Source: Methanogenium organophilum (lineage in GTDB: Archaea > Halobacteriota > Methanomicrobia > Methanomicrobiales > Methanomicrobiaceae). From it: a DNA stretch of 64,000 nucleotides. Position 1 is the stretch's first letter; the number at the start of each line of letters is the position of its first letter. This document shows, piece by piece, positions 2,524-17,960 of this stretch. Both the position numbers and the translations under genes were made by a program. A model generated the notes under the pieces. It had not been told where the DNA came from, did not search any database, and worked only from the letters and a program-made list of their open reading frames with translations. The stretch covers positions 1,488,001 through 1,552,000 of the forward strand of contig NZ_CP113361.1 in the NCBI RefSeq assembly GCF_026684035.1, written 5' to 3'.

Positions 2524-3458
2524 CCTCTCTCCTTGAGATCCGCGATCTGAATGTGACGTTCCGTGGGAACCAGACGGTCCGTGCGGTGAACGGCGTCTCC
2601 CTCTCCCTCGGGGAAGGAGAGGTTCTTGCGCTGGTCGGGGAGAGCGGGTGCGGCAAGTCGGTCGTTGCCCATGCCATCGCCCGTCTCCTGCCACCTTCAG
2701 CAGAGGTTGAGGGCAACATCCGGTTTCAGGATACGGATCTTCTGTCCCTTGATGAGCAGGCGATGGAGAAGATCCGCGGAGCGGGTATCGGCGTGATATT
2801 CCAGAACCCCTCCCTTGCCCTCAACCCTCTTCACCGGATCGGCAGGCAGGTGGCCGAACCCCTGCGCCTTCACCGGCGGGTGGGGAAAGAGGAAAGTCTT
2901 GGCACGGCATCCCGCGTTCTTTCCCGCCTGGGATTTCCAGACCCGGAAGCAGTAATGGCGCTCTATCCCTCCCAGAGTTCGGGCGGGATGAACCAGCGGT
3001 TCGTAACAGCGGCCTCAACGGTGCTCGATCCTCATCTCCTTATCGCCGATGAACCGACAAAGGGGCTTGACCGGGAGCGGGTGGACGGGGTCGTCGCCGA
3101 ACTTGGCGGTCGTCTGTCCGGTGCCGGGTCCGCTCTGCTCCTGATAACCCATGATCTTTCAGTGGCGCGTGCCATGGCCGACACCATTGCCGTCATGTAC
3201 GCAGGAGAGGTGGTGGAGGAGGGGTCGCCTGAAACGGTGCTCTCCTCTCCCCTGCACCCCTATACACGAGGGCTTGTGGGGAGCCTCCCGGAAAACGGGT
3301 TTGTCCCTGTACCGGGACTGGCCCCGTCGCCCGTTGCCCTTCCGGGAGGTTGCCGGTTCCACCCGCGCTGCCCGGACCGTCTGGAATGCTGCACCGGTGA
3401 ACATCCCCCGCTCTTCGTCTCCGGGGAACAGTCCGTGAGGTGCTGGCGATGCCGCTGA
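2520..3458 (+). CDS. ABC transporter ATPase, NikD/DppD type
   Basis: ATP-hydrolysing subunit of the importer. The start is the ATG at 2520 (ATGA overlap with the permease stop); reading further upstream in frame gives a non-homologous extension. Walker A is GESGCGKS, Walker B LLIADEP, and the H-loop is in LLLITHDLS. The signature reads SSGGMNQR, where family members usually have LSGGMxQR. The last 40 residues carry the oligopeptide/dipeptide-type C-terminal motif CRFHPRCPDR with clustered cysteines, which binds an Fe-S cluster in some relatives. It works with the second ATPase encoded immediately downstream. Confidence 0.9.
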   Translation: MTSLLEIRDLNVTFRGNQTVRAVNGVSLSLGEGEVLALVGESGCGKSVVAHAIARLLPPSAEVEGNIRFQDTDLLSLDEQAMEKIRGAGIGVIFQNPSLALNPLHRIGRQVAEPLRLHRRVGKEESLGTASRVLSRLGFPDPEAVMALYPSQSSGGMNQRFVTAASTVLDPHLLIADEPTKGLDRERVDGVVAELGGRLSGAGSALLLITHDLSVARAMADTIAVMYAGEVVEEGSPETVLSSPLHPYTRGLVGSLPENGFVPVPGLAPSPVALPGGCRFHPRCPDRLECCTGEHPPLFVSGEQSVRCWRCR

Positions 3459-4141
3459 AGGCCGAAGGAATTACTGTCTCCTATCGTCCCGGAATCCTCT
3501 CGCCTCCCGGCAGGCGGATCCTCGACGATGTTACCCTCGAACTCAGGCAGGGGGAGACCTACGGGCTGATGGGTGCATCCGGTTCGGGAAAATCGACCCT
3601 CTCACGTGTGATGGCAGGTCTGGAGACGCCCCGTGAGGGGCGAGTTGTCTATCAGGGTTCTCCGCTGAAAGGTATGGACCGATCTGCCTTCGCCGCTTTC
3701 CGGCGGGGGGTGCAGGTGATGTTCCAGGATCCGACCGCCGCCCTGAACCCGAAAAAACCGACCGCACGATCGCTATCCGATGTGCTCAGATTGATTCGTG
3801 TGCCCGCACGGGAGCATAGCGCGGTGATAAAAGATGCCCTCGATCAGGTGGGCCTCACCCCCGATGTCCTTGCACGGACGCCGACGCAGCTCTCCGGTGG
3901 ACAGAACCAGCGCCTCGTCCTTGCACGGATTCTTCTGCTCGAACCGGAGTACCTCCTCCTGGACGAGCCGACCTCGGCCCTGGATGTATCCGTGCAGGCA
4001 CAGATCCTGCGGCTACTCCGGGACCTTCGGGAAGACCGCGGGATGGGGTATCTCTTCATCTCCCACGATCGTGATGTGGTCGGATTTATGGCCGACCGGG
4101 TGGGCGTCCTGCGAGACGGACGGCTCTGTGAGAAGGAGTAG
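3449..4141 (+). CDS. ABC transporter ATPase, NikE/DppF type
   Basis: Second ATPase of the importer, 230 residues from the ATG at 3449, which overlaps the previous gene by 10 bp; a GTG at 3440 would add three residues. Walker A GASGSGKS, signature LSGGQNQR, Walker B YLLLDEPTSALD and H-loop FISHDRDV are intact. It is shorter than typical DppF proteins because the C-terminal CxxRC-type extension is absent, as in NikE. It is the last gene of the plus-strand operon and converges on a long minus-strand gene, with a perfect hairpin in between. Confidence 0.88.
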   Translation: MPLKAEGITVSYRPGILSPPGRRILDDVTLELRQGETYGLMGASGSGKSTLSRVMAGLETPREGRVVYQGSPLKGMDRSAFAAFRRGVQVMFQDPTAALNPKKPTARSLSDVLRLIRVPAREHSAVIKDALDQVGLTPDVLARTPTQLSGGQNQRLVLARILLLEPEYLLLDEPTSALDVSVQAQILRLLRDLREDRGMGYLFISHDRDVVGFMADRVGVLRDGRLCEKE

Positions 4142-4198
4142 AATCCTCTTTTCTTTTCAACGGGAACTGCTGGTCTGCAATTATCATAAATGATTTTT

Positions 4199-4220
4199 CC
4201 CGTCTGATTATTCAGACGGG
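4199..4220. terminator. perfect inverted repeat between convergent genes
   Basis: Arms CCCGTCTGA and TCAGACGGG (9 bp, perfect) surround the 4-nt loop TTAT. The repeat lies at the junction of two convergent genes, and the loop contains the TAA stop of the minus-strand gene. It could stop transcription in both directions or stabilise both 3' ends. Archaeal termination usually relies on T-runs rather than hairpins, so the terminator role is inference. Confidence 0.55.
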
Positions 4221-7200
4221 GTGATATTCACATGATATTTTGCGGTCTCATAGGGATTGATGATCGCATTTTCCACGGTTGCCGTTCCCTCGGCGGATAC
4301 CAGCCGCACCGGTATGCTGCCGATGTCCATGTACCGGAATTCCGCCGGGGTCTTCTTGCCGGTATACTTGTTGTAGAGATAGATCTTAGCCCCTTCCGGT
4401 TCGCTTGAGATGCTAAGGCTACCGTATGGATATGGCTCAAGGAGGAACGAAATTTCGGCATCTACTGGATGGATGTCGGGGACAAGGTGCAGCGTTTCTT
4501 CGTCAGGCAGGTGGCCGGGGAGTGAGACCGAGATGGTATGCCTTCCTTCTGAAAGGTTTGCAATCGTATAGGGGGTGTGCATGCCGGTAGGGAATCCGTC
4601 CACGAATATCTCAGCACCGAGAGGTTCGGAAGTGATCCGTGCGGTGCCGAATCTCATGTCCTCAGAGCTGATGCATATCGAATCCCCATCCCGCCAGATA
4701 TTGCCATCCTGTGTGATGTATGATCCGTTATGCCGAATGGTGATATATGGAAGCACACCGCTCACTTCCACCTCTGCCGGAAAGGTATACTGGGGATACC
4801 TGCCGTTAATGGTGAAATCCTCGTCCTGATAGAGATCCGATGAGAGCGTGATCGTGTGTGTTGTGATGTAGGCATGGTCAAACGTGACCCCGGTGATTGC
4901 GCCAGGATAGATCCAGACTTTCTTGATGTCGCACGGATACTCCGCCAAATCATTCCGGACCTTGATGGTATGCCGCCCCTCCTTGAGTCCCATGATGACC
5001 TCCGGGGTTGTAAGACCGGTGTTTCGCCCGTCCAGATAGATATCTGCACCATCCGGATGCGATGTCACATACACCCCTCCGATACCGTCTTCGTATCCGT
5101 ACGGTACAAACCCTTCGAATTTGAGGGTATTCAGTTTGGCGGATTCCGGGGTGAGATCAAATCGAACTTCACTGTTATCGGAGACGGCAAGTGTCTCTTC
5201 AGACTCCAGAAACCCCGTTCGAGAGACCGAGACAGAATGCATTCCTCCTCGTGTGTCCACAAGAATGCAGGGCGTTGTCTTTCCGGTATAGATGCCATCC
5301 AGCATCACGAGTGACCCCGGAGGATTGGAGAGGATCGTAAGGTCGTAGGTTCCGTTTCGATAGTCGATGAAGGTCTCTTCAGCTATTTGGATTTCAGTGG
5401 ATGGTGACTTCGGCGAACCGGATGCTACGGATGGGATATGGGCCGCTTCTTCCGGATCACCGGGTGACTCAGAGATATTCAGAACTCCCGAAATGCCGGT
5501 GAAACGAAGAATCGCGAAGAGAATGTCTGAGAGACCGGAGAGGATTCCTCCCCACGTTTTGTCCCCGGCGGACGGCTCTTTTGTAATGCAGACCGCCGTA
5601 TAGGTGCCGAGACGGTCGGTTGATAGTGTTGCAACCCCGTCTTCAACGGACGTACTTCCGGCATCATTCCATTCGCCGGAATCCGTATCGTACCGTTTCA
5701 GCATGACGGTGCCGCCGGAGGTGCAGATTTCGCCTTTTACTTCGAGGATAAGGGGGATGTCCGCCGTTGCGTCTGCCGGTGTGAGGGAATAGGTCCATAC
5801 CGGGTTTCCGCCGGGGAGGCTGCTTCTCTGCTGAATCGTAACCATACTGATGGTCGCCCCGTCGGCATCGACGAGACGTGTCCCTTCCCGGATATAGAGC
5901 GTGCATTGTCCGTCTCCCGACCTGAGTTCGGCCGCGTGGAGAAGGTCGCCTGCGGCGGGGAGCGTGAAGGTCTCTTTATCTGCTGAAGCCGTGCTGCCGG
6001 ATTTCTCCGATGTGCCGGTCTCCGGAGACGTGACTACCGAGACATTGGATGCCGTGGCGGCATGGGTGAGTACGAGGAGGGCATTGCGGTTTTCCAGGTA
6101 GTCTCCGGTTGTACCCATCAGTGCACTCTGTACCTGCGCTCCGTTGGCCGTGGTGCGGAGGAAGGGCGTCACGGACTCCGTCCACAGGCTGATGCCCGAT
6201 GATCCGCCGGTCAGGACATTGTAGTACTCCCAGTCATTGAAGAAGACCCGGTTTGCGTCATCGCCCTTTCCGGTGGCTGCCGTGCTGATGACGGTCAGGT
6301 CTGCGGCAGTGATGCCGTCCGTATCGATCTCACCAGGGAAGGAGATTGCCGTCGTTGCCGCATCCGGGGTAATCTCTGCCCCTTCATCAGCGATGATTGC
6401 ATCGCACCCTTCGGCAAGCCAGGCAGTACGTAAGGGGGCGGACACATTTTCATAAAAGAGAACGATGACCCCACCGTAAAGGGCGCAGACCTCCCCCGGA
6501 TTGCCGGTGTTTTTGACCGAGAGTTGATAGTCCCCGGCGCCCTTCTTCCGGACCGCATCCGTGACGTTGAAGCAGCGGGTCGAGAGGATATAGTCGTATA
6601 CGCCTTCTCCCTTTCTGTCCGTATATATGACATCCGGCGTGATTTTGGTATTGTCCAGCGAAGATATGAGATCCACTTCTGTCCCCGACTTCTCATCGGC
6701 GTGATGTCCCCAGGTGGTGTAGAGGAAGAGGCGTGCCAGTACCGGTTCTTCGGACGGCATGCGGGGGAGCTCCCAGGTGAACCGGGAGGTGGTGTCGCGT
6801 TCGATGAGACCGGTGTAGGTGCCGAAGGGGATGGTGACAACTTCTCCCCTGAATGTGATGGGGGTGCGTGTGGTGAGTTCTTTTCCTGTATACCCGGTGG
6901 CCTCCGTATCTTCGTCATCGTAATTGTTTCCCGTCCCTCCCGTTCCGCTCTCCGGAGTGAGGGTAAAGGAGACATCCGTGTTCTCCCCTTCACTGACCGT
7001 GACCGTCTCCCGTGCCTCAGCATACCCGTTGAGGCGCACGGAGACGGTATGGTCCCCGATGATCACGTCCTCGAGGAAGGCCTCCGTCGTCTGTCCCGAG
7101 TCTTCTCCGTCGATGAAGACCTGCGCCCCTAAGGGTTCGGAGGTGACGGAAAGACTGCCGGTCAGCGGCCTGAGATTGAAATGGGCCGTTGTCTCCGCGT

Positions 7201-8341
7201 CAGCAGTGATGTCGATCCACTGTTCGTCTGCCTCCTCATAGGACGGATACGCCACGCTTACGGCATATGACCCCACCGACATACCCGGGATGGTTGTGTT
7301 GGTGGTGTATTCCGTCTCTTCCCCGTCGATGAGGATCGTCGCACCCGGCGGAGAGGAGGTCACGGTGAGAGTGCCGGTCTCCTGTTCCGGATACCGGACA
7401 GAGAGGGCGGCGAGGAAGATCTTATAGAAGCTGTCGGTGCGGTCGCAGGAGAGCGTGGCGTCCTCCCATGGCGTGATGATGCCGGAGACATCCCATTTAT
7501 TGTAGCCGCAGTAACTACCTTTGGTGGAGGTGATGAGGTCCGTCGGTTCGTCCTCATTCAGGGTGTACGTGGCATCTTCACTCGCGAGATGGACATTCTG
7601 CAGCCGGGCTTCGGCCCATTCCTCTTCCGGATGAAGAACTCCCGTGGGGAAGGTGGCATGGATAACATAATCCTCCCCCAGTTCTTCCTCCGAGTGATAG
7701 GAATCGGTGTCCTGTCCGTCCATGATCCAGTATCGCACCGAATCACCGTCCCCGTCATCGTATGCCACCACGAGCGTAATGATCTTGATACGACCGTCGA
7801 ACTGCGCATCGGTATATGCTGTACTGACCCGTGCCCCCACTTCTTCTCCCGTGATCTGGTAGGTTACATCATACCACATCAGGTAGTCGCTCGTCACCCG
7901 GTCACAGTGGGCGTTCACTGCCACAGGCCCTGTCCCGCCCGTCCCGGGAAAGGTGTAGGGGACATTGAGGGATTCCGTGCCGATCTGTGAATATCCGGTT
8001 CCCCCGTCGAATTCGATCGTTGCCGCCCCTGCATAGTTATTTTCCATATTGCCGCAGTAAACGGTGACATACAGGCGTGCCCAGCGGATAGCAGAGTATT
8101 CGGGGAGAGAATACCGCTTTTCCACCGTCACCGGCGCGGTATTGCTCATCCCGTAGTACGAATCGATCCAGACGCCTCCCGATACCGTTCCCTCATCCAC
8201 GGTATCGAGGGGGATACCTCCGACGTAGTTGTCTGCCGAAACGGGGGTTGCTATGGAAACCATGAGAAGAAGGCCCAGGAATAACATGACTCCCGGGATA
8301 CCTGGAATCTGGTTTGTTGCGGATACGTGGTACTGATTCAT
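4208..8341 (-). CDS. large secreted DUF3344/PEGA repeat surface protein
   Basis: Residues 15-36 form a signal peptide ending near VSADN. Residues about 38-315 match the DUF3344 pattern (YVGGIPL, WARLYVTVYCG, DGRIKIITLVVAY). Two PEGA repeats follow (about 323-460; PPGATILIDG, PLGAQVFIDG), then a second DUF3344-like domain (about 485-765), a beta-rich stretch with a PGF-pre-PGF-like feel, and four more PEGA repeats to the C terminus (for example PDGADIYLDGRNTG, PLGAEIFVDGFPTG, PEGAKIYLYNKYTG). There is no C-terminal membrane anchor or obvious sorting signal. PEGA domains are extracellular beta domains common in methanogen surface proteins. It lies 91 bp downstream of the ABC-export operon and may be its substrate or partner, which is inference. 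Confidence 0.85.
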   Translation of the reverse strand: MNQYHVSATNQIPGIPGVMLFLGLLLMVSIATPVSADNYVGGIPLDTVDEGTVSGGVWIDSYYGMSNTAPVTVEKRYSLPEYSAIRWARLYVTVYCGNMENNYAGAATIEFDGGTGYSQIGTESLNVPYTFPGTGGTGPVAVNAHCDRVTSDYLMWYDVTYQITGEEVGARVSTAYTDAQFDGRIKIITLVVAYDDGDGDSVRYWIMDGQDTDSYHSEEELGEDYVIHATFPTGVLHPEEEWAEARLQNVHLASEDATYTLNEDEPTDLITSTKGSYCGYNKWDVSGIITPWEDATLSCDRTDSFYKIFLAALSVRYPEQETGTLTVTSSPPGATILIDGEETEYTTNTTIPGMSVGSYAVSVAYPSYEEADEQWIDITADAETTAHFNLRPLTGSLSVTSEPLGAQVFIDGEDSGQTTEAFLEDVIIGDHTVSVRLNGYAEARETVTVSEGENTDVSFTLTPESGTGGTGNNYDDEDTEATGYTGKELTTRTPITFRGEVVTIPFGTYTGLIERDTTSRFTWELPRMPSEEPVLARLFLYTTWGHHADEKSGTEVDLISSLDNTKITPDVIYTDRKGEGVYDYILSTRCFNVTDAVRKKGAGDYQLSVKNTGNPGEVCALYGGVIVLFYENVSAPLRTAWLAEGCDAIIADEGAEITPDAATTAISFPGEIDTDGITAADLTVISTAATGKGDDANRVFFNDWEYYNVLTGGSSGISLWTESVTPFLRTTANGAQVQSALMGTTGDYLENRNALLVLTHAATASNVSVVTSPETGTSEKSGSTASADKETFTLPAAGDLLHAAELRSGDGQCTLYIREGTRLVDADGATISMVTIQQRSSLPGGNPVWTYSLTPADATADIPLILEVKGEICTSGGTVMLKRYDTDSGEWNDAGSTSVEDGVATLSTDRLGTYTAVCITKEPSAGDKTWGGILSGLSDILFAILRFTGISGVLNISESPGDPEEAAHIPSVASGSPKSPSTEIQIAEETFIDYRNGTYDLTILSNPPGSLVMLDGIYTGKTTPCILVDTRGGMHSVSVSRTGFLESEETLAVSDNSEVRFDLTPESAKLNTLKFEGFVPYGYEDGIGGVYVTSHPDGADIYLDGRNTGLTTPEVIMGLKEGRHTIKVRNDLAEYPCDIKKVWIYPGAITGVTFDHAYITTHTITLSSDLYQDEDFTINGRYPQYTFPAEVEVSGVLPYITIRHNGSYITQDGNIWRDGDSICISSEDMRFGTARITSEPLGAEIFVDGFPTGMHTPYTIANLSEGRHTISVSLPGHLPDEETLHLVPDIHPVDAEISFLLEPYPYGSLSISSEPEGAKIYLYNKYTGKKTPAEFRYMDIGSIPVRLVSAEGTATVENAIINPYETAKYHVNITPSE

Positions 8342-8432
8342 GGCGTCACCGGTATTCTGAGTATCATACTGTTGGCGTAATACAAAAAAGTGTATTTCTA
8401 TTATTGTGTGTGATTGATTTTGGTTTGGTGTA

Positions 8433-9650
8433 TCATAATCCCCGGCGGATGGCGTCCACCGGATTGAGGCGGGCTGCCTTCAGTGCCGGATAGATGCCCG
8501 CCAGGAGGGAGAGCGTTACGGCAATGACAAGTCCTCCCGCAAGCAGGGCCGGCGTGACGAGCGTGATGTCGGCATCGGCGAATCCGGAAAATCCGGTGCC
8601 CAGCTGCGAAATAATGAAGGATTTACCGAGGGTATTGATCCCCACAGAGAGGAGAATGCCCAGGATATCTCCCGCAATGCCGCCGAGGATGCCGATGTAG
8701 AGGCATTCGAGGAGAATAAGGGTGAGCACATGCCGCTGCGACGCCCCCAGTGCCATCGTAATCCCGATCTCGCGCGTACGTTCATAGACCGTCACCATCA
8801 TCGTGTTGATGATCATCATCGCGCCGATGATCAGCGAGATCCCGGTGAAAAACGAGAGGATGATGATGACCGCGTCCATCAGCCGGTTGACCGCCTCAAT
8901 TTCTTCAAATGGTCCCTGTGCCTCCAGTCCCAATCCGCGGACATCTTCAGCAACGGCAAACACATGCCCTGGGGTATCCACGCGCAGGTAGATGACATCA
9001 TATGCCCCGTATCCCTCCCGCCATTCCTCCACACGTGCGGTGTCCGTTACGAGCAGGGTGTCGAACATATCGCCACGGGGACGGAGGGTGCCTGCAACAG
9101 GAAAGACCACCTCGGTGTCGACCGGTGCCCCGGATGCGTCATACTCCCGGATGCGGATGGTAAGGTCGTCGCCGACCCGGATACCTTCGTATTTCCGCAA
9201 TGATTCTGCAATTTCGCTTCCCAGGATTGCGCTGTCGGTCGTCTCATCGTAGCCCGTGCCTTTGCTGAATTCCGGCCCGAACACCGCGGAAAAATCCTCC
9301 CACGCAATCCCCGCGGCCCCCACATAAGTCTGATGGGGCGTTGCAAGGTCCGCTGTTATCACCGGTGCCGTCCCGTTCACATGCGCAATGTTCCTGAGGG
9401 CGGACGCCTTTGCGGCCGTTAGCGGGATGATCGCTCCGTCGCGCACGTCACCCGTTACGGTAATGAGAGTAAGATCCGACTGTTCGCTGATCATTTCGAT
9501 GGAATGCGCACGGATTCCCTCCCCCAGGGAGACGATGGCCACGACGGCCGCGACACCCACGGCGATGCCGAGGATCGTGAGGATGAGGCGGGTGCGTCTC
9601 CGGAGGATCTGACGGCCGGAGATGCGGGCGAAATCGATGCCCTGCCCCAT
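8433..9650 (-). CDS. MacB/FtsX-family ABC transporter permease
   Basis: 405 residues with one N-terminal membrane helix (LILTILGIAVGVAAVVAIVS), a large extracytoplasmic MacB-like periplasmic-core domain (about 45-265) and three C-terminal helices (about 270-400), the MacB/LolC topology. The start shares one base with the stop of the ATPase gene, so the two are translationally coupled. Such pairs act as mechanotransmission exporters or lipoprotein releasers rather than importers. In this operon the partners are secreted DUF3344 proteins, pointing to a role at the cell surface. Confidence 0.9.
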   Translation of the reverse strand: MGQGIDFARISGRQILRRRTRLILTILGIAVGVAAVVAIVSLGEGIRAHSIEMISEQSDLTLITVTGDVRDGAIIPLTAAKASALRNIAHVNGTAPVITADLATPHQTYVGAAGIAWEDFSAVFGPEFSKGTGYDETTDSAILGSEIAESLRKYEGIRVGDDLTIRIREYDASGAPVDTEVVFPVAGTLRPRGDMFDTLLVTDTARVEEWREGYGAYDVIYLRVDTPGHVFAVAEDVRGLGLEAQGPFEEIEAVNRLMDAVIIILSFFTGISLIIGAMMIINTMMVTVYERTREIGITMALGASQRHVLTLILLECLYIGILGGIAGDILGILLSVGINTLGKSFIISQLGTGFSGFADADITLVTPALLAGGLVIAVTLSLLAGIYPALKAARLNPVDAIRRGL

Positions 9651-13280: not shown

Positions 13281-14384
13281 TCAGATCCGGTTGGAACCAC
13301 CGGAGAACATATCCAGTGTCATCTGCCCGGAACACGTGCGCTCAAGTCCGGAGACCGACACCCCGATTAGGCGGACCGGTGTCTTGGTGAGAAACGGAAG
13401 AAGAAGTGATTCTGCTGTATGGAGAATGGCATCCTCGCAATTGGTTGCATGAGCAAATGAGAACGCCTTCGTCCGGGTGGTAAAACCCCGGTAGCGGATT
13501 TTCACCGTGACGGTGCGGCACCGTCCTCCCTCCTTACGAAGGCGTCTGCAGACCTCTGCAGAGAGTATGGCAAGATTCCTGCAGAGTAGTTCCCTGTCTG
13601 TCACATCCTCAGGAAAGGTGTATTCCTTCCCGATGGATTTGCGCTCTCCCCTGCCGGAGACAGGAGTATTGTCGATACCATTTGCTTTCGCATGCATGAC
13701 ACCCCCCCATTTCCCGAGAACGTCTTTGAGGCGGAGGGGGTCTGCTTTTGCAAGTTCTCCTGCTGTGGCGATGCCCAGGGATGCAAGTCGTTCTTCCGCT
13801 TTTTTTCCTATACCGGGGATCTTTCTCACCGGAAGAGGTGCAAGGAATGCTGCGGCATCATCCGGGTGGACGATGGTCATCCCGTCCGGTTTGTTGAAAT
13901 CGGATGCAATCTTTGCGATGGTCTTATTCGGGCCGATGCCAACCGAACAGGTGATCCCCTGTCGCTCTTTGACAAGATGGCGGATCTCTGTTCCGATCTC
14001 TTCGGCAGCGGCATATGTGCCGCATGATGAGATGTCACAGTAGGCCTCATCGACACTCACCTGAGCAAAGGCATCCGCAAAAGGTCTGATGGCATCCATG
14101 ATGTCCCCGGAGACTTCCCGGTAGAGGTCATGGCTGACCGGCAGGTAGACCGCCTCCGGGCACCGGACGTATGCCTCACTGATGGGCATCGCACTCCGGA
14201 TGCCGTAGCGACGCGCTTCATATGAACAGGTGCAGACCACGCCACGCCCCGTCCCCCCTTTTGGGTCGGCACCGACGACGACCGGCAGACCTTTGAGAGC
14301 AGGATTTTCCCGGACTTCCACGGACGCAAAGAAACTGTCCATGTCCACATGGAGGATAATTCGTCGGGTCTCTGTTCTGCGCAT
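13281..14384 (-). CDS. dinB: DNA polymerase IV (Y-family)
   Basis: Translesion DNA polymerase. The metal-binding residues are in HVDMDSFFASVE (N terminus) and VSVDEAYCDIS, and helix-hairpin-helix sequence IPGIGKKAEERLASLGI follows; the little-finger domain closes with GVSVSGLE. The C-terminal QMTLDMFSGG resembles a PCNA-interacting peptide (Q-x-x-L-x-x-F). I chose the ATG at 14384 because a GGAGAGG ribosome-binding site precedes it; an ATG at 14426 would add 14 residues. It is divergent from the PARIS-like operon, with 200 bp between the starts. Confidence 0.92.
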   Translation of the reverse strand: MRRTETRRIILHVDMDSFFASVEVRENPALKGLPVVVGADPKGGTGRGVVCTCSYEARRYGIRSAMPISEAYVRCPEAVYLPVSHDLYREVSGDIMDAIRPFADAFAQVSVDEAYCDISSCGTYAAAEEIGTEIRHLVKERQGITCSVGIGPNKTIAKIASDFNKPDGMTIVHPDDAAAFLAPLPVRKIPGIGKKAEERLASLGIATAGELAKADPLRLKDVLGKWGGVMHAKANGIDNTPVSGRGERKSIGKEYTFPEDVTDRELLCRNLAILSAEVCRRLRKEGGRCRTVTVKIRYRGFTTRTKAFSFAHATNCEDAILHTAESLLLPFLTKTPVRLIGVSVSGLERTCSGQMTLDMFSGGSNRI

Positions 14385-14550
14385 ATCTGTTTTCCTCTCC
14401 CCGGGTGCTGGTATAGGTGTTTTCATAACGGGGTATTTGAACTATTGCGGTGCGGTGTGAAAATAAAACACGTGGGAGAAAGGAGGTGGTGCCGGTTGAT
14501 GGGAAAAACGGTTTTGAGTTTGGTCTGTTTTTCTCCACTCTCAGGCACAG

Positions 14551-14559
14551 CATAATATC
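14551..14559 (+). promoter_or_regulatory. TATA-like box for the PARIS-like operon
   Basis: CATAATATC lies about 30 bp before the ATG at 14586, which would place the transcript start a few bases before the start codon. A GGGGT at 14577-14581 could act as a short ribosome-binding site. Assignment is by position and base content only. Confidence 0.35.
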
Positions 14560-14585
14560 TCCTCAGGTCAAATATCGGGGTACCT

Positions 14586-16313
14586 ATGTCACTCAAGACC
14601 CTCCTCGTAACACCTGCAGGAAAGGAGAAAGTCTGGGATGTACCCGGCAGAAATCCCCCTGATGCCGTACGGGCGCGTGATGCCTTTACCGGTCGGTTTG
14701 CCCGCCGGTGTGCACAGTACGCCCGTACCCACTATCCAAAGGACTGGGCGATTCTCTCACCGAACTTTGGCTATCTCATGCCGGATGATGAAGTTCGCAA
14801 TTATCATAATGATGAATTTGGGGAATACAGCCTTGAATTTGATACCATCAGGGAAAACGCCGAGTATGATGGTCTTCTGGGATATGATTCCGTAATATTC
14901 CTTGGTAACCGTGAGGATTATGGTGGATATATCGATGCGGTCAGGCAGACATTTACCGGCAGCTGGGTAGAGGTGCCTCTGGAACATACGCCGTCAGGCG
15001 GTGAGATGCTGGGCCATATTGTCGATTCTCTCACACGGGGGACACCCTTACGCAGCAATATTATTCATCTCTCACGAATACGTGTCGAAGGCCTCTTTGG
15101 TGAACTGACCCACGATATCTCTTTATTCCCAAAAGATTCTCTCTCGATAATCACAGCGCCGAATGGGTATGGGAAGACGACTATCCTTCGGATACTCCGT
15201 GCTATCTTCATGGGCAATGTCGATGAACTCAGGATTCTGCCCTTTGGGTCAGTCGAACTTGAATTTATCCGGGATGACTGCACGATTCCTGATATCCATG
15301 ACACCCTTCATGTTGAAAAACAACAACGTTCACAGTTTCCGTTGAGAATAGACATATCGTTCACCTATACACAGGGTGTGGACGGAAAAGGACGGCACTT
15401 TGTGCTCAGGGATGGTGACTACGACAGCGAGACGGTATCTGCAGAACTTGCAGGAATAATCCCCCCTGTGCCGGTGAAATATATCTCTGCTCAGCGTCTC
15501 TGGCATGATCCAAACCATAGGAAAGGTATATGTGGTGATTTACTGGCCAGTTATGATCGCAACCACGAGGGTGCATATGAACTTACCATTCTTGCGTATA
15601 CGGATGATATCATACGGCGTATTCAGGCACTTCTCGCAGATTATGCCTCAATTGCGCAGGAACTTGATGCCACCTACCCCGCCCGATATCTGCAGGCACT
15701 GGGGGACGGCGAGTTAATTCCTTCGGCAGCAGAGATTGAGACCGATCTTCTCTCTCTACAGAAAGAGCGGGAATCATTTGAGACACTCGGGTTTCTGCCA
15801 TATACCCGGCTTGATGACGGGGATGTGATGATCACGCCCGGAAGAATTCCGGATGATCCTGGTATAAAAACAGCAATATATTTGTATATCGCAGATTCCC
15901 GCGAAAAATACCAGATATTCGGAGGGTTAAAACAAAAGATTGACCTGTTAGAGGAGATCATCAACACGCTCTTTTTAAATATCGACTTCACGGTTGACAT
16001 CGAGAGTGGGTTCCTCCTGAAGTTCATGGGGCGCGACCCGGTCCCTCCGGAAGCGCTCTCTTCCGGTGAACAAAATCAGCTGGTCATGTATTACGACCTT
16101 ATATTCAAGACTGACCCCGGCACGCTGGTGCTTATTGATGAACCGGAGATCTCTCTGCATGTGGTATGGCAGCGGCAGTTTCTGGACACCATCCTGGGTA
16201 TCATAGGCATCACTGGTTCGGATTTCATCCTTGCCACTCATTCGCCGCAGCTGATTCATACGCACTGGGACAATACCGTAGACCTATCAGGGAACTATCC
16301 GGATGAAGGGTAA
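14586..16313 (+). CDS. AriA-like AAA ATPase with N-terminal DUF6884-like domain
   Basis: 575 residues. Residues 1-150 resemble DUF6884 (ARDAFTGRFARRCAQYAR; DWAILSPNFGYLMPDDEV; VIFLGNREDYGGYI; VEVPLEH). Residues about 158-575 form an ABC/SMC-type ATPase: Walker A APNGYGKT (191-198), signature LSSGEQ (491-496), Walker B LVLIDEPE (514-521) and H-loop LATHSP (549-554), with a helical insertion between about 330 and 460. The stop overlaps the next gene by 11 bp; that gene encodes a DUF4435/TOPRIM protein. An ATPase (AriA) plus DUF4435 nuclease (AriB) is the PARIS anti-phage arrangement. The ATPase call is firm, the PARIS assignment likely, the DUF6884 assignment fairly good by eye. Confidence 0.8.
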   Translation: MSLKTLLVTPAGKEKVWDVPGRNPPDAVRARDAFTGRFARRCAQYARTHYPKDWAILSPNFGYLMPDDEVRNYHNDEFGEYSLEFDTIRENAEYDGLLGYDSVIFLGNREDYGGYIDAVRQTFTGSWVEVPLEHTPSGGEMLGHIVDSLTRGTPLRSNIIHLSRIRVEGLFGELTHDISLFPKDSLSIITAPNGYGKTTILRILRAIFMGNVDELRILPFGSVELEFIRDDCTIPDIHDTLHVEKQQRSQFPLRIDISFTYTQGVDGKGRHFVLRDGDYDSETVSAELAGIIPPVPVKYISAQRLWHDPNHRKGICGDLLASYDRNHEGAYELTILAYTDDIIRRIQALLADYASIAQELDATYPARYLQALGDGELIPSAAEIETDLLSLQKERESFETLGFLPYTRLDDGDVMITPGRIPDDPGIKTAIYLYIADSREKYQIFGGLKQKIDLLEEIINTLFLNIDFTVDIESGFLLKFMGRDPVPPEALSSGEQNQLVMYYDLIFKTDPGTLVLIDEPEISLHVVWQRQFLDTILGIIGITGSDFILATHSPQLIHTHWDNTVDLSGNYPDEG

Positions 16314-17328
16314 AAACCGCCGGTTCGCCGGTTATCGTCTTGAAGATATCTGGGCTGACCCCGAAGAGATCCGGGGCTCGATTGAGACGATGGAGATGAC
16401 GTATCCCGGAATGGGAGGGAAGGTATTTGTGATAACCGAAGGGCCCTATGATCTGGAGGTGTATGACCGGTGCTTTAACAGTGATGCCTGTATTCTGCGG
16501 ATTGCAAACTCAAAGGAGAATGTCTGCGAGGTTGTAAAAGGGGTCTGTATGGGTGATACACAGCCCGTTGCAGACGAAACGGGAGATGATGGAGGCGGGG
16601 GAGAACGACGTATCATTGGTATCATAGACAGCGATTATTCTCTCTTCGACCGTTCATCGGAGGTGAGAGAGAACATCTTTCGGACGGACACCCATGATCT
16701 GGAAACGATGCTCGTTGCATCCGGTGCGCTTGAGAACGTTATTGAACACATTGAGACAGTCGCATTGCCGCAGACCTTTGCCCAAAAGGCCTATGGATCA
16801 CTGCGCCAGGGAGACCTCCGGGCGGCACTGACACGGGCAGCCCGCTATCTGGGACTTGCGGTCTTTGTGAATAACGAGGCCGGTCTCAATATCACGTTTA
16901 AGCATATCAACTGCAAGAAACGCGATACCTTTTCCCGGTTTGTCAATGCTGAAACGCTTGAATGTGATATTGAAGCGATGAAACAGGTGATTCTTGAGAA
17001 AAATGCAGACCGGGGAGAAGAATTCATAGACATTTTTGAGGGTCTGGTACGTAATTCCGGAGGGTATTACTTTGAGTATCCGTGGCATATCTGCCGCGGT
17101 CATGACCTGATCTGTGTCCTTCTGCGCGATATCAACATGCGCTATTCGCTGCGCGATGGTGAGCAGATCAAAGGCCGTGATCTGGAACGCCTTCTGAGGC
17201 GACATTATCAGGCGGTGTACTTTGCAGATACAGACCTCTGCCGGCAGATCCGTCACTGGGAAGAAGAGATCTTTGGCAACGAGGTGTCCCGTATTTTTTC
17301 CCCTCAGATTTATCGTGCGTTGCTGTGA
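16303..17328 (+). CDS. AriB-like DUF4435 TOPRIM protein
   Basis: 341 residues. The TOPRIM core is visible: FVITEGPYD gives the catalytic glutamate E46, GIIDSD gives D109 and D111, and TDTHDLETM carries D132 and E134, the DUF4435 pattern. The rest is helical and unlike anything else I recognise. In PARIS, AriB is held by AriA and released as a nuclease when the ATPase senses a phage protein; release cleaves host tRNA. The 11-bp overlap with the ATPase gene and the intact acidic residues suggest an active pair. OLD-family or other AAA-plus-TOPRIM defence modules are the alternative reading. Confidence 0.78.
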   Translation: MKGKNRRFAGYRLEDIWADPEEIRGSIETMEMTYPGMGGKVFVITEGPYDLEVYDRCFNSDACILRIANSKENVCEVVKGVCMGDTQPVADETGDDGGGGERRIIGIIDSDYSLFDRSSEVRENIFRTDTHDLETMLVASGALENVIEHIETVALPQTFAQKAYGSLRQGDLRAALTRAARYLGLAVFVNNEAGLNITFKHINCKKRDTFSRFVNAETLECDIEAMKQVILEKNADRGEEFIDIFEGLVRNSGGYYFEYPWHICRGHDLICVLLRDINMRYSLRDGEQIKGRDLERLLRRHYQAVYFADTDLCRQIRHWEEEIFGNEVSRIFSPQIYRALL

Positions 17329-17339
17329 AAAAATGGATA

Positions 17340-17960
17340 TTACTGGATATTTGAGTAGTTTTCCTCAACCTCATTCTTCGCGGTGTGACGCAGATCCATA
17401 AGTTCCAGTATGACAGCATCTGAGAAGATCATCGCCGCAGTCTCGAAGAGTGAACCTGTGGGAGCCTTTGGGTTGTATGCTGCACCGGACCGGTGTTCGC
17501 CGGTTATCTGCCGGATGGCGAAGTCAGAGGAGAGTCCTTTGTCATCATACTGTCGGCTGTCAAGAACCACGGTCAGGTCTGCTGTCTTTGCCATGGACGA
17601 CTCCCCGCGTGATGTGACAAGGGCCAGAGTGCCGCCAACTGCCTTGGCGGTTTTACAGATGTCAGTGATGGAATGGGTCTCGCCCGACCCGGAGAAGGTT
17701 ACAAGCAGGTCACCCTTCTCCATTGCAGGAGTTATTGTCTCACCAACCACATAGCTCTCCATCCCAAGATGCATCAGCCGCATGGCAAATGCCTTGGCAA
17801 TAAGTCCTGAGCGTCCGGCTCCCGCAACATAGATTCGGTCGGAGGTCAGAAGTGCCTGCATAAACCGCTGTCCTTCCCTGTCAGACACTGTGTCTGCGAT
17901 TGAACCCGCAGCAGTGGCGATCATTCGCATCAATTCCTGAATACTGTAGCACGTGGCCAT
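17340..17960 (-). CDS. hxlB: 6-phospho-3-hexuloisomerase
   Basis: SIS-domain isomerase of 206 residues that interconverts hexulose-6-phosphate and fructose-6-phosphate. Typical motifs are GAGRSGLIAKAFAMRLMHLG, TFSGSGETHS and the C-terminal PLGS-like PTGSLFETAAMIF; the E and H residues near the end (ELMDLRHTA) match the family. No hexulose-6-phosphate synthase gene is adjacent; in methanogens that activity may be on a separate or Fae-fused protein. The gene is convergent with the PARIS-like operon (11 bp apart). Together with the phosphoribulokinase at about 38 kb it fits ribose or reductive hexulose-phosphate metabolism. Confidence 0.88.
   Translation of the reverse strand: MATCYSIQELMRMIATAAGSIADTVSDREGQRFMQALLTSDRIYVAGAGRSGLIAKAFAMRLMHLGMESYVVGETITPAMEKGDLLVTFSGSGETHSITDICKTAKAVGGTLALVTSRGESSMAKTADLTVVLDSRQYDDKGLSSDFAIRQITGEHRSGAAYNPKAPTGSLFETAAMIFSDAVILELMDLRHTAKNEVEENYSNIQ

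Follow-up and report, generated by a model that had tools for sequence, protein, structure and literature searches.

A diverged DUF6884 domain fused to the AriA-type ATPase of a PARIS-like gene pair in the archaeal family Methanomicrobiaceae

PARIS (AriA/AriB, class 4 OLD) consists of adjacent genes for an ABC/OLD ATPase and a DUF4435/Toprim protein. In E. coli PARIS, hexamers of AriA hold AriB until binding of Ocr frees it, and the freed AriB dimerises and cuts tRNA-Lys (PMC11455837, PMC12409363). PARIS senses viral anti-restriction proteins, and positive residues of E. coli AriA are believed to let it recognize proteins of negative charge (PMC11455837). Rousset et al. recognized the system by adjacent genes scoring at least 32 bits for AAA_15 or at least 27 bits for AAA_21, together with at least 27 bits for DUF4435, and its occurrence in archaea has already been reported (Rousset 2022, PMC9122126). 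The open literature searched yielded no experimental study of archaeal PARIS. The archaeal OLD ATPase Cran1 apparently plays no part in antivirus defence (PMC12796447). DUF6884 is known from a different context, as a domain of DpdC, which is needed for dADG in Salmonella DNA (PMC11888242). The authors of the Pfam family described a CxxxK and an LSAxxG motif as a possible part of its active site, and the member YfjM was among the reported interactors of abasic/RNA-base lesions (PMC11701544).

The window analyzed here covered bases 1488001-1552000 (64,000 nucleotides) of the 2.65 Mb single-contig genome of Methanogenium organophilum. It harbored two genes on the plus strand, coding for an AriA-type ATPase (14586-16313, 575 aa) and a predicted AriB-type DUF4435/Toprim nuclease (16303-17328, 341 aa). 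The 11-bp overlap between them, noticed in the preliminary description, was found identically in relatives from both nearest genera. A dinB-type (Y-family) DNA polymerase gene (13281-14426, minus strand) was encoded divergently upstream and a SIS-domain gene (17340-17960, minus strand), the first of a SIS/AspAT/EF-2/rpsG/rpsL block, downstream; both are given as context and not as parts of the system. A few bases immediately 5' of the ATPase start, in the short intergenic stretch shared with dinB (14427-14585), were kept across the five relatives compared. The locus was indeed richer in AT than its flanks, though mildly, with a GC content of 0.49 for the ATPase gene and 0.51 for the AriB-type gene against 0.54 to 0.56 for the neighbours (0.526 for the window).

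The ATPase core (residues 159-575, 15060-16313) displayed all four motifs that had been described as intact, namely Walker A (191-199, APNGYGKTT), signature (491-496, LSSGEQ), Walker B (514-521, LVLIDEPE) and H-loop (550-554, ATHSP), and their residues were nearly all invariant in 14 family members. It matched Pfam AAA_21 with 61.5 bits (cut-off 27), AAA_15 with 46.5 bits (cut-off 32.1) and the PADLOC AriA model with 5.8e-22. The core could be aligned with bacterial AriA homologues, and the closest PDB structure by sequence, using a profile of the ATPase family, was AriA itself (8ux9, E 1.5e-16).

The second protein was likewise placed inside DUF4435/AriB by Pfam DUF4435 (29.0 bits, cut-off 27), by the PADLOC AriB model (E 2.6e-11) and by profile-profile comparison of the archaeal AriB-type proteins (probability 99.9, E 7e-37) with a DUF4435/AriB set that was mainly bacterial and included plasmid and phage partners as well as four order-mates from Methanomicrobiales. 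The acidic residues E46, D109, D111, D132 and E134, all present as first described, were invariant in 15 AriB-type sequences of the family and aligned with E35, D84, D86, D109 and E111 of the bacterial proteins. Compared with most of the bacterial homologues fetched, the archaeal protein was about 50 aa longer. A sequence search of the PDB with it gave no match, and its AlphaFold model (pLDDT 36, from a 5-sequence alignment) was too poor for a reading of the fold. With adjacent genes and scores of 61.5, 46.5 and 29.0 bits for AAA_21, AAA_15 and DUF4435, the pair lay within the Pfam rule for PARIS. A homologous ATPase gene followed directly by a DUF4435 gene, or by a like-placed gene of similar length, occurred in six records of bacterial plasmids and in two of P2-like phages. 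The Pfam rule, PADLOC and the PDB match thus supported the initial assignment as a PARIS-like pair, with the catalytic residues conserved.

The ATPase differed from that of PARIS by a DUF6884-derived N-terminal domain of about 158 residues (residues 1-158, 14586-15059), close to the 155 originally estimated. Residues 1-156 scored 24.8 bits against Pfam DUF6884 (PF21818), under the 30-bit cut-off, as did the best of the fused domains from relatives (26.2 bits). A profile of the fused domains retrieved standalone DUF6884 proteins of about 150 aa (E 1e-16 to 8e-29), several of which cleared the Pfam cut-off themselves (E 1e-13 to 1e-20). Through these intermediates, the assignment of the N-terminal region as a diverged DUF6884/YaaA-like domain appears secure at the level of sequence homology. 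The region did not belong to the ATPase family itself, as bacterial AriA homologues, from which it was absent, began at about residue 160 of the archaeal protein and unfused DUF6884 proteins occurred. Other archaeal ATPase-DUF4435 pairs, from the same order (L041, L043, L044), had the same two-gene layout without the N-terminal domain. The AlphaFold model of the domain (pLDDT 50, from a 6-sequence alignment) was too poor for a YaaA-like fold to be read; a Foldseek search with it returned no match below E 0.001, and its top row, the DNA glycosylase SMUG1 (E 0.07), was not used as evidence.

DUF6884 belongs to the chemistry by which bases are modified and repaired. In methanogens, it formed the C-terminal part of the DNA 7-deazaguanine transglycosylase DpdA at two loci (L100, 5011-6705; L097, 6681-8423), the former called by NCBIfam NF041059 (E 8e-90) and PADLOC (2e-81) and the latter with similar support. 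The first of these genes had transposase genes on one side and a large helicase gene on the other. At nine other loci (L082-L089, L095), DUF6884 was fused to, or encoded beside, an AGOG-type 8-oxoguanine DNA glycosylase; these loci belong to another archaeal family (f9) and likely represent a functional pair in base repair. The company of DpdA, AGOG and DpdC led us to propose that the fused domain binds a base that is modified or damaged. A canonical DUF6884 domain was also found in the C-terminal half of an 882-aa cysteine-rich protein (L092, 4451-7099). Among 20 further DUF6884 loci, none displayed a split form, in which a standalone DUF6884 gene would stand beside an ATPase gene and a DUF4435 gene.

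The fused domains were homologous to PF21818, DpdC and YaaA-like domains over their whole length and had several positions in common with them, including K15, S58 and G62, which were invariant across the fused family. Unlike these relatives, they lacked the cysteine of the CxxxK motif in 14 of 14 copies (alanine in 13, serine in one), with the lysine retained, and all 14 read LSPxxG instead of LSAxxG; in M. organophilum, A11 occupied the position of the family cysteine and P59 followed S58. The cysteine was present in all 11 other archaeal DUF6884 domains compared. The N-terminal domain is therefore probably non-enzymatic, of the dead-enzyme type, as far as its residues indicate, and because the key cysteine of the base-handling enzymes is missing it probably serves as a built-in sensor. 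The preliminary description had left the choice between a sensor for a virus product and an added effector. An effector enzyme with nucleic acid bases as its substrate, which the base modification and repair enzymes among, or fused to, its relatives could suggest, is made very improbable by the replacement of the putative catalytic cysteine in every copy and by the change of LSA to LSP.

The fused domains were also acidic, with net charges of -3 to -13 compared with -1 to +11 for other DUF6884 domains. The same genome encodes a standalone DUF6884 protein with a net charge of +5, so the acidity does not reflect a host-wide bias. This second DUF6884 gene of M. organophilum (L093, 6146-6604; G000:C1:72146-72604) has its cysteine intact and adjoins a gene for a GIY-YIG protein, with a phage-type integrase nearby. 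General binding of DNA or RNA by the N-terminal domain, which was initially favoured, is weakened by the negative charge, and the acidity makes a protein partner or a small ligand more plausible than broad nucleic-acid binding.

Within Methanogenium, the N-terminal domain showed the lowest dN/dS (0.043), followed by the ATPase core (0.067) and AriB (0.143), while the neighbouring genes gave 0.138 (dinB), 0.079 (SIS), 0.110 (AspAT) and 0.095 (EF-2); these Nei-Gojobori values are approximate, being drawn from at most five sequences with high dS. Such constraint would be easier to reconcile with a ligand that stays the same than with a viral protein that evolves fast. It bears on the idea of an integrated decoy, in which the dead domain would mimic a DUF6884/DpdC-type target of viral proteins and their binding would release AriB. 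The retention of a domain whose putative catalytic residue is gone, its acidic character and the sensing of viral anti-restriction proteins by PARIS (PMC11455837) are consistent with a decoy, which is nonetheless improbable as the N-terminal domain was the most conserved part of the pair within the genus, and arms races with viral proteins do not usually leave such a pattern. The same conservation and acidity could also befit a component of the ATPase assembly that has a structural or regulatory role and senses nothing itself, for instance an acidic plug in a positive trigger site like the one through which E. coli AriA is thought to recognize negative proteins (PMC11455837). The invariance of K15, S58 and G62 of the DUF6884 motifs argues against such a role, which we regard as unlikely.

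A PARIS variant, that is an AriA/AriB two-gene switch, with a pseudo-enzyme sensor as its N-terminal domain was the best explanation overall, and we give it an even chance of being correct. By analogy with PARIS, the ATPase would probably assemble and keep the Toprim ribonuclease inactive, and a trigger would cause it to let AriB go. The freed AriB dimer would then cut RNA and growth would stop in a manner resembling abortive infection, as with tRNA-Lys in E. coli PARIS. The non-catalytic domain would act as the sensor and its ligand would gate the ATPase; with its motif positions kept, its nucleophile lost and its evolution the slowest of the pair, it is a natural candidate for sensing the trigger. 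A modified or damaged, guanine-like base, or a nucleotide or nucleic acid containing it, could be a first guess for the ligand, and an antiviral function of the pair is presumed. The more specific proposal of a trigger consisting of a modified or damaged nucleobase, alone or within a nucleotide, that the dead DpdC/DUF6884 domain on AriA would read, is put forward tentatively, as a minority possibility. One genome of the family (G120) carried both the fused system and a DpdA-DUF6884 protein whose gene adjoined a helicase gene, which is awkward for DNA 7-deazaguanine as the trigger. No copy of the N-terminal domain was found in the viral contigs scanned.

The fusion bears on the question of which triggers, beyond anti-restriction proteins, a PARIS-type ATPase may adopt. 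Detection of an invader by an inactive enzyme domain that stems from the machinery of DNA base modification would be novel, and if the base proposal were true, immunity would be set off by invading DNA with modified bases, or by precursors of such DNA, and not by an anti-restriction protein. A recognizable, separately studied domain is here grafted on a sensor ATPase under very strong selection, and its removal or swap would directly test trigger sensing, making the fused pair a first handle on archaeal PARIS. The expectation that the fusion was undescribed in methanogens stood in part: no account of a DUF6884-AriA fusion was found in the open-access literature (a search that is no proof of absence and had two 2024 Nature papers on PARIS outside its scope), but archaeal PARIS itself had been reported before. 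New here are the fusion with its vertical history, the loss of the cysteine together with the LSP change and the acidity, the base-handling partners of DUF6884 elsewhere and the slow evolution of the N-terminal domain.

The DUF6884-ATPase fusion was found in Methanomicrobiaceae only, its absence from bacteria being based on records of phages and plasmids plus a single scan of genome contigs with a narrow pattern. Orthologues of the DUF4435 gene were present in 16 of 28 Methanomicrobiaceae genomes and six of nine genera, with a remnant in one further genome (G112), and the pair was not found in genera g2-g4 of the family. Every full-length ATPase recovered from the family carried the N-terminal domain; orthologues of the domain from M. 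organophilum with 93-94% identity occurred in several records of Methanogenium, M. marinum among them. The order dinB - pair - SIS - AspAT - EF-2 - rpsG - rpsL was displayed across Methanogenium, interrupted in some drafts by a single insert or a gap. Adjacency to dinB extended to the sister genus and was limited to these two, and in other genera of the family the pair occupied different loci.

In both the ATPase and the AriB trees the family divides in the same way as with EF-2, into (g1, g9) and (g5-g8), which together with the syntenic locus in Methanogenium indicates that the pair is old and vertically inherited. Judged from these sequences, the fusion arose before most of the Methanomicrobiaceae diverged and was later lost in places. 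Recent horizontal transfer is not supported, given the conserved position between dinB and the EF-2 block and the EF-2-like trees, and on this time scale the transferred defence genes at first suspected from the AT-richness were not borne out. The pair in this respect differs from PARIS in bacteria, whose homologues found here sit on phages and plasmids.

As the pair has long been inherited vertically at a housekeeping locus, and given the precedent of Cran1 (PMC12796447), there is room for a cellular rather than antiviral role, in which a family-ancestral DNA-damage or growth-control module would couple a base-damage-related domain to the ATPase-nuclease switch. Synteny, strong purifying selection, the dinB adjacency in two genera and the report of YfjM among interactors of abasic/RNA-base lesions (PMC11701544) would agree with such a role. 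Cran1, a class 5 OLD protein of Saccharolobus, is also a lineage-retained archaeal OLD-type ATPase with a Toprim nuclease; unlike the present pair, whose two genes set it apart from class 5, it is a single chain and has no DUF6884-derived domain. The patchy occurrence (16 of 28 genomes, the G112 remnant, none in g2-g4) is more like that of a dispensable defence system, the loci differ in other genera and the dinB adjacency stops at two sister genera, so that the cellular role appears rather unlikely.

In the draft genome of Methanogenium cariaci JCM 10550 (L030, G104:C13), many genes were frameshifted, seemingly by sequencing errors. The copy of the pair in this species was considered as a pseudogene and rejected as such, since three other genes of that contig (EF-2, AspAT and SIS) were broken likewise. 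Insertion of other genes beside the pair is exemplified by one Methanogenium MAG (L026), in which a transposase gene (3385-4743) separates dinB from the ATPase gene and a Schlafen/AlbA_2 protein is encoded downstream of AriB (7800-9488).
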